This document shows positions 40,501 through 43,500 of a stretch of DNA of 64,000 nucleotides, piece by piece. The notes below the pieces were generated by a model, which ran no database searches, had not been told where the DNA came from, and was given only the letters and a program-made list of their open reading frames with translations. Position 1 is the stretch's first letter. The number at the start of each line of letters is the position of its first letter. This DNA is from Xiphias gladius. Lineage: Eukaryota > Chordata > Actinopteri > Istiophoriformes > Xiphiidae. A program made the position numbers and the translations under genes. The stretch is from assembly GCF_016859285.1 (NCBI RefSeq), contig NC_053417.1:16276706-16340705 (forward strand), read 5' to 3'.

Positions 40501-43500
40501 CTTTCTGAAGTGTATACACTACAAAACCTGCCTCGTCCCACATGCTAAGCTCAAAAACATTCATCTTACATTGACAGTACAAGCTACATCCTATTAATCT
40601 GTGCCATCTTACAGGTGAGTTCTGACATTTATACCAGGAAATATACTGACCTGGAAATCTGAACAAGTGGCCCTCTCCAAATGTGTATTAGAGAGCAGCA
40701 AATTAAATGCCATTGGTGTAAAATGATGTCACAAAGAGCCTTTATTACAGGGTATGATACAACCACAAGAGAAGTGCTATAACAGAAAGGATATAAAGAA
40801 CTGAGGGAAATGTTCAAGAGTGAGAACGTGGAGTTCAGAAATGTATCAAAGGAGAAAACTGAAATTCCACAAGTGTGTACACAAATGAGGGGCACATTAA
40901 AAAATCCTGGCTTGTTTGTGTATGCAGGTCTTCATGTGCATTACTACAGCCATTTACATGCTTGGGTCACCCATGCCAGCTACTGAATCTCATGCAATTA
41001 TCTGTCCAAGGCCACAAATCTGTTGAACTCTGTAAAACAAGCCAACATTATTGCCATGCATTATAACAAAAACCACAAATTATGATACATAAACGCACTC
41101 AAAAAAAAAAAAAAACCTGGCTTTTACACAGGGCAACGCCACACAACTTCAAATATGGAAAGAAAGCAAATGAATGAGGCCTTTAAAGCATACAAGCAAC
41201 CAAATAAAATGTCTGATAATATAATGAGTCTGCAAAGCCTTAGCCTGCCAGGCCATGTTCCCATACCATTTAAATAACACTATCTCAGTGCACTCAGCCC
41301 TAATGATATTACGATCACGTACCTAACTTTTCCTAAGCTGGATTTGTACTTCTCCATCAAGGTGTTCCAGTGGTCCTGCCTTAGGGGTTTAGTATAGGAA
41401 CTTTGGCATAATGCTAGGTAATTGTTTAAACTGACAGACATAACCAGTAGCAGATTAAATCAGCTATAGCTAATTAATGTTAATTCCTTAATGTCTCAAA
41501 TAAAAAGTTGGGGTGTTCTCTGGTTAATGGGTGCTCTGCAGCTGGTCTCTGTATTCAGCCAAAGACTGTTTGTGAAAAAAAAAAAAAAAAAAGTTTAATC
41601 TAAACAACTTCAATCACAACTGAATCAGAACCTTCAGTATTTAAAGAACATAGCTCTTGAAGTGCAGTAGGATATAGCTTATTAATCGATCATCTCATTT
41701 TCAGATTGTAGATACAGTTTGTGAACATAAATTAGGCTGACACTAAAAACTGTAGTTTTTCTGCCTTCTCAGCCAACAAAAGTTGATTAGACATGTTTAA
41801 GTTGTAGTTATTTTAGTCACTTAAAAATGGTGGAGGGTAAACCTAGTAATATTCGATAAGGGGTACGAACAATTGGATTCAGATAAGGGGCTTTGATACC
41901 GGATTTGAATTCAATAACCCCATCCTAGCATGCATTATCATTTAAATGTTTCTATTATTAATGAAAACAAAATGACCACTTCTTGTGATCTCCACATATT
42001 CCCTGTACCCCATGACATATTGTTACATTTTTGAGGAGGTGCAGGTCAACCATGGAAGAACTTCCAAGGTAGATACTGTAACACCCTGAAAGAGAAGTAT
42101 GAACCTTTCATAAGCTCTGAGAAAGACATCCCTGCTGGTTCAATGGGTTAAGTTGGATTTGGGCCACATGCAGAGTGAAGCAGCTAGCATGGCAAAGGCA
42201 GTGAGCATGTGTACCTTGAGCTTAGACTGAATCTCACGAGACTTTCTCTTGGCCAAGACTTGCAGGTGACTAGAGACCTGAGGAGAGACAGGATGAAGGA
42301 AAAAGGAAAGAGGAAAAGGAAAGGAAAAGAAGAGGGGATATGACTACAGAAGGAAGGGGGAGGTTTTTTAGCAGGCACCCACCTTGATGCTCGCCTGGTA
42401 TTCTCGTACCCTCTTACGTGCCAGAACCTGAATGTGACTAGACACCTATGGAGCCGGGGTTACCAACATGAAAACATACACGTTCACTGGATGACTTTTG
42501 CAATTTTAAACAACAATGGTGCATTAATAATCACTTTAACAAGATGAATGGGGAATTTACAACAAAATAAAAAACAAAAAACAAAAAACAAAACACGTAA
42601 GGGCATATGGAAGCTGCACCTAGCAAATCCCATTATACTGTATTAAACATTTAAACACTGAAGTCTTTGATAACAACTGTGCATACCTGTTTGCGTGTAC
42701 GTGTCTTCCCTGTTCGTAGCTTGATATAGCGAGCTATCAGCTCATTTCGTCCTAGAATTGAACAAGTAATATGTAAAATCAGACTGGAGCATTTAAACAA
42801 AAAAAACAAAAAAAAAAAAAAGCCATCGTAACACCTTAGTTACAGGCAGAACAAATGTATTGTGCTATGATGACAGAGTAAGACACTGATGGGGCTGGTA
42901 CAATCTGCAAGGATCGGTGATCCATTTTAATAATTCTGTTACACTTCACCTAATATACTGTACATTTTCAAATAGTGGCTGCAGCCTTGATTTACCTCAG
43001 TGACAGAGAGAACCATTAAAAATTACCATTAAAAATCACGACAGCCATAATTCTGGACCAAATTTAAAGATGCTTGATGCTGATGTATGACACTGTTTAC
43101 TGGCATGCATCCGGAGCTGTCAATGTCCAAAGGTCCTGCCTTAGTTTTTCTCTGTGGTACATTCACAAAAGGCCTGCATGCTCTTAATTACACCACTCTC
43201 ATTAACTATTGTTGCAACCAAGCTCATTTGTTCACTGAACCTAAGAGGCAGTGATGACAAGAGGGAGTGCTCTAATACATTACCATTAAGTCAAACTTAA
43301 TCAGTACTGGATCTCTATTCTACTACAACACAGCAAACCACACAGTCTCTATTTTGGTTTGTATTTTAGAGAGTCAATCTACTTAAGTACAATCATAACA
43401 AACATGGCAAGACCATGAGTCTTTCATGTTTTTCGGCCTAGGGGTTACAGTGACATTGGGGATTACAACTTGTCAAATGTATGTTTAAATTGTACCGAAT

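Follow-up and report, generated by a model that had tools for sequence, protein, structure and literature searches.

Two conserved tandem exons for one TEA-domain segment, probably used one at a time, in the TEAD3 genes of the swordfish

The TEAD3 locus and its exon pair

The window –the whole 64,000-nt stretch that was analysed, positions 16276706-16340705 of contig C18– carries a TEAD3 gene on the minus strand, with coding pieces that matched in order from 48588 to 37567. We assigned it to TEAD3 by the segment VREYQ..IK and the AMNL microexon, using human TEAD3 as the reference, and it presented the YAP-binding domain PF17725 (62.5 bits in Pfam). Between exon 2 (42751-42687) and the 12-nt AMNL microexon (40390-40379), we found two 63-nt phase-0 exons separated by an intron of 105 nt. 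They lie on the minus strand at 42445-42383 (copy 1) and 42277-42215 (copy 2), exactly as the first-pass annotation had placed them, and both are open and flanked by AG and GT. The features around the pair are as follows:

48480..48588, minus strand: preceding exon, which holds the start of the TEA domain (...KMY)
42687..42751, minus strand: shared exon 2, upstream of the pair
42383..42445, minus strand: copy 1, probable alternative exon of TEAD3 type; 19 of 21 residues identical to copy 1 of the second TEAD3 gene (C21)
42278..42382, minus strand: intron between the copies, 105 nt; candidate branch-point A at intron nt 15, 42 and 89
42280..42363, minus strand: long pyrimidine tract 5' of copy 2; its TCTT motifs are candidate PTB sites
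42215..42277, minus strand: copy 2, probable alternative exon of TEAD1/2/4 type; 20 of 21 residues identical to copy 2 of C21
42167..42172, minus strand: TGCATG, candidate RBFOX site, starting at nt 43 downstream of copy 2
41929..41934, minus strand: second TGCATG, starting at nt 281 downstream of copy 2
40379..40390, minus strand: AMNL microexon, 12 nt, after the pair; present in C21 too
39917..39997, minus strand: start of the next shared exon

The two copies share 12 of 21 residues, a count already given by the first-pass annotation and borne out by our re-alignment, and 37 of 63 nucleotides. Chance or an assembly duplication was ruled out as the source of the pair, since there are 26 differences in 63 bases between the copies and both are present again on another contig.

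At the domain level, the TEA domain (PF01285) scored 98.5 bits with copy 1 and 98.0 bits with copy 2 in Pfam. With neither exon the score fell to 74.2 bits, thus skipping harms the TEA match. With both exons it reached 105.4 bits, and this test cannot rule out double inclusion. Both exon lengths are divisible by three; the reading frame is kept with both exons or with neither, and it does not prevent double inclusion.

A second TEAD3 gene with the same pair

We searched the swordfish genome (690.8 Mb) with a 231-nt query spanning the pair, using a tool that scores the best candidates only. Among those, one other locus matched both halves (C21:9217061-9217328). It belongs to a second TEAD3 gene, with the AMNL microexon and further matching exons, in which both exons are kept in unchanged order, 142 nt apart. 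Thus, the pair is older than the split between the C18 and C21 genes. For relatives outside this genome, scans of two contig collections (genomic and viral) retrieved none.

Order and strand are also conserved in the C18/C21 block for an armadillo-repeat neighbour (window 16.5-23.3 kb) and a further coding-like piece (31.4 kb); other matches scattered over the two contigs are out of order and look like repeats. The block looks like a segment of a whole-genome duplication, which we infer to be that of the teleosts. The armadillo-repeat gene (16516-23269, minus strand) is plakophilin-like by eye, and its side and strand relative to TEAD3 are the same at both loci.

Between C18 and C21, copy 1 keeps 19 of 21 residues (pS 0.69, pN 0.041) and copy 2 keeps 20 of 21 (pS 0.78, pN 0.052). 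The excess of synonymous over non-synonymous change gave Fisher P values, from rounded counts, of 5e-7 for copy 1 and 6e-7 for copy 2. In the surroundings of the pair, alignment at E < 0.2 was confined to exon 2, both copies and the pyrimidine tract. Near-saturated synonymous change together with scant protein change, between genes whose introns hardly align, indicates that both exons are under strong purifying selection. Comparison of the two genes strongly supports the view that the exons are alternative versions of one TEA-domain segment and that both are functional; the first of these readings had been proposed from the window alone, and the conservation of the pair in C21 upholds it.

As a side observation, the start region of the window gene (48480-48700, minus strand) reads ATC ATT GCG, with an in-frame ATG further upstream that is perhaps intronic. 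The same region of the C21 gene reads GCCGCCACC ATT GCG; an in-frame stop precedes it, and the frame contains no ATG from this stop to the TEA domain. The TEAD3 start codon may be non-AUG; such starts are known for mammalian TEAD1 and TEAD3.

Splice signals around the two copies

The first-pass annotation described a weak acceptor for copy 1 and a strong one for copy 2, and this agrees with the pyrimidine content at -23 to -4 in the window (12/20 vs. 18/20). The corresponding values in C21 are 13/20 and 15/20. The donors, scored with a weight matrix, run opposite to the acceptors, with copy 1 the stronger: 5.6 vs. 0.1 bits in the window, where the weak copy 2 donor is AAG/GTACAC, and 6.0 vs. 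4.2 bits in C21. These opposed strengths would fit regulation. U12-type splicing was discarded, as neither of the donors GTGGGT and GTACAC looks U12-like by eye against the consensus.

No other stretch of the minus strand of the window reaches 72 pyrimidines in 79 nt, as the tract 5' of copy 2 does. The intervening introns of the two genes contain 3 and 8 PTB motifs of the TCTT type.

The weak copy 2 donor of the window would suit a different reading, that only one copy works –most likely copy 1– and that the other is rarely used or a relict. Mammalian TEAD3, including the human gene, presumably has a segment of the copy 1 type, which points the same way. However, copy 2 keeps its 20 of 21 residues across synonymous saturation and is preceded by the densest long pyrimidine tract on this strand, and we regard a relict exon as improbable.

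Branch points were scored with a matrix. Among the window candidates (intron nt 15, 42 and 89), the best-scoring one is nt 89, 16 nt from copy 2. A branch point there would allow copy 1 to be joined to copy 2, whereas one at nt 42 would block it. In C21, the best match is CACTGAC; it lies 35 nt from the donor of copy 1, and the region near copy 2 offers no candidate of similar quality. This motif is a full fit to the YNYURAY consensus (PMC1431707, available excerpt). A donor-branch distance below 50 bp has been used as a criterion for potential steric interference, with 57 clusters or 9% assigned to it (PMC5740500, main text). A steric block by the branch point is plausible but tentative, being good in C21 and ambiguous in the window.

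The zones free of AG 5' of copy 2 measure 64 and 100 nt. As stand-alone proof of a distant branch point they were rejected, because among 22 other TEAD acceptors 8 reach 64 nt and 2 reach 100 nt. This control covered acceptors of five TEAD genes, some with approximate exon starts, and excluded the four acceptors of the pairs; a C21 peptide that could not be located and a spurious three-letter match were removed.

Around the two pairs (1388 nt), we counted 5 occurrences of the hexamer TGCATG vs. 0.9 expected, a number that a fraction of 0.002 of 3000 shuffles reached; the excess is post hoc, as this was one of ten patterns looked at. Both genes have it downstream of copy 2, an arrangement also seen in 4.5% of shuffles; upstream of copy 1 it is restricted to C21. 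By the position rule of RBFOX proteins, these placements would all favour copy 2. Control by RBFOX through TGCATG would be a lead.

One exon at a time

Taken together, we consider it likely that the two exons are old tandem alternatives for one slot of the TEAD3 mRNA. Exon 2 would be joined to copy 1 or to copy 2, and the AMNL microexon would follow; the two resulting TEAD3 proteins would have a common VSSHxQVLA start and different ends of the recognition-helix segment. In this model, splicing of copy 1 to copy 2 would be hindered by a copy 2 branch point lying no more than about 50 nt from the donor of copy 1, and the choice of copy might be set by pyrimidine-tract (PTB-like) and possibly RBFOX factors. 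Exclusive use is probable by whatever means it is achieved. Both genes present adjacent homologous exons of equal length and phase (63/63 nt, phase 0).

The same equality would also serve routine inclusion of both exons, which would make a TEAD3 with a repeated helix-3 segment. Intron lengths of 105 and 142 nt are compatible with splicing, the best branch-point match in the window intron is nt 89, and Pfam does not object, with a slightly higher score (105 bits) for the double form. On the other hand, the C21 gene has its candidate branch point near the copy 1 donor. Moreover, copy 2 keeps VSSHxQVLA in both genes and matches the single-exon TEADs, a constraint that is needless if it trails copy 1 and expected if it directly follows exon 2. 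We consider routine double inclusion very improbable and retain the alternative use of the copies.

What the swap would change in the protein

At the protein level, the four copies share the segment start VSSHxQVLA, which holds base-reading residues of helix 3, except for an Ile/Leu exchange. The differences between copy 1 and copy 2 sit at the segment end, of which RKKVREYQAGIK is one of the variants. Since the start is common and the end differs, similar target motifs are expected. Instead of a new motif, we would expect the two forms to show differences in affinity, modification, partner contact or nuclear import.

One difference concerns a potential kinase site. Copy 2 was said to restore a basic-basic-X-Ser site that copy 1 lacks; we recovered it as KRKS in C18 and RRKS in C21, with Val at this position of copy 1 in both genes. 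A serine is also found there in TEAD1, and TEAD2 carries it too. We take the copy 2 serine to be the equivalent of TEAD1 Ser102, a target of PKA. Copy 2 would thus give TEAD3 an ancestral, TEAD1/2-like helix end with the basic-basic-X-Ser site missing from the copy 1 form. Phosphorylation by PKA and PKC inhibits TEAD by disrupting DNA binding, and the residue is not named in the available part of the source (PMC6628201). A PKA switch may act through the copy 2 serine.

Comparison with known systems

Exons that swap a part of a DNA-binding domain are already known in transcription factors, and the TEAD3 pair would join them: FOXP1 and MEF2 have such alternative exons, and TCF3 exons 18A/18B (E12/E47) swap the bHLH DNA-binding part. 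Like the TEAD3 pair, the TCF3 exons are neighbouring alternatives of a transcription factor. They differ in the domain, bHLH instead of TEA, and in that exclusion is RNA-proven in TCF3 and inferred for TEAD3. PTBP1 acts at the intronic region between exons 18A and 18B (PMC12585103, available excerpt).

Exons of the alpha-tropomyosin type, with a distant branch point, resemble the pair in the long pyrimidine tract before the downstream exon and, in C21 only, in a candidate branch point near the upstream donor (PMC1431707, available excerpt). Unlike them, the TEAD3 pair has a branch point that is a candidate from sequence, an AG-free zone of ordinary length and, in the window, an ambiguous intron.

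Within the TEAD family, TEAD4-S arises from RBM4-driven skipping of exon 3, and here too splicing alters the DNA-binding part of a TEAD (PMC5867882, available excerpt). However, TEAD4-S loses the domain, whereas the TEAD3 pair probably swaps one version for another. Chicken DTEF-1A/1B (TEAD3) reportedly differ by alternative splicing at the C terminus of the TEA domain and may be related to the pair. Their lengths reportedly differ by one residue, though, which a 63/63 swap would not give.

We found no description of the TEAD3 exon pair in the open-licence literature, which is no proof of absence. The available parts of PMC3123743, PMC12490864, PMC3620549, PMC7140685, PMC6292497, PMC5852603, PMC4004540 and PMC10616205 do not mention it, and TEAD has 0 occurrences in the main text of a human survey of mutually exclusive exons (PMC5740500). 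Both exons may already be present in the annotation of other fish genomes.

Within the Hippo-YAP pathway, TEADs are the components that bind DNA, and we know of little that explains what sets TEAD3 apart from its sister TEADs. A conserved natural swap of the very segment that distinguishes TEAD3 would make this distinctness testable within one gene. One TEAD3 gene can probably make two kinds of Hippo-pathway transcription factor. If the pair is used, a knockdown or rescue with one cDNA sees only part of the gene output.

Other TEAD genes and the origin of the pair

A search of the genome with the exon 1 peptide gave at least five matches: the two TEAD3 genes on C18 and C21, C8:5.14 Mb, C8:22.9 Mb and C1:19.7 Mb. 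By comparison with known TEAD sequences, we take these last three to be TEAD1-like, TEAD4-like and TEAD1-like, respectively. The exon 1 peptide search found no TEAD2, and divergent or unassembled genes could escape it. For zebrafish, four TEADs are listed (1a, 1b, 3a, 3b) in the available part of PMC6759317.

Within the 30 kb that were read, each of the two TEAD genes on C8 shows a single VSSH exon. The C1 gene includes 8 kb of N and yielded neither exon 2 nor exon 3, so its exon count is not readable. This TEAD1-like gene (C1:19715100-19745099) is split by two N gaps of 5 and 3 kb. A fifth exon 2 was located on an orphan 1-kb contig (C433) and probably belongs to it.

Copy 2 matches the TEAD1-like exon of this genome at 18 of 21 residues and the TEAD4-like exon at 17 of 21; copy 1 matches each at 14 of 21. 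Against human segments, copy 2 is nearest to TEAD2 (19 and 20 of 21 in the two genes) and copy 1 to TEAD3 (18 and 20 of 21). The description of copy 2 as TEAD1/2/4-like, given by the first-pass annotation, holds overall and fails for TEAD4 at the serine position, where TEAD4 has Ala (5gzb; TEAD4-like exon of this genome).

Being closer to the TEAD1-like and TEAD4-like exons than copy 1 is, copy 2 looks ancestral and copy 1 derived. If human TEAD3 is of the copy 1 type, copy 1 would predate the parting of fish and tetrapods. The simplest history would be an old tandem duplication, with copy 2 lost in mammals.

Copy 2 is closer to the TEAD1-like and TEAD4-like exons than to copy 1 (12 of 21), which could also mean that another TEAD gene donated it, through ectopic conversion or insertion, at a time when copy 1 was already TEAD3-specific. 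The same pattern arises without any transfer if an old tandem duplication was followed by divergence of copy 1, and the pair predates the C18/C21 split in any case. We consider a transfer unlikely, and it is compatible with an alternative-exon function.

Returning to tandem duplication, it is possible, though conjectural, that the pair is as old as TEAD3 itself. The founder gene would have had an ancestral and a TEAD3-type exon, of which fish kept both and mammals lost the ancestral one. By splicing, fish TEAD3 would then switch to a helix end of TEAD1/2 type with a kinase site, partly replacing the TEAD2 that was not found here.

Finally, the last coding exon of the TEAD4-like gene appears twice on C8 (positions 26266-26376 and 27546-27656 of the joined stretch), 1,280 bp apart. 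The duplicated sequence is 100% identical over at least 590 bp, as the comparison ended at the edge of the stretch, and represents either a very recent duplication or an assembly artefact.
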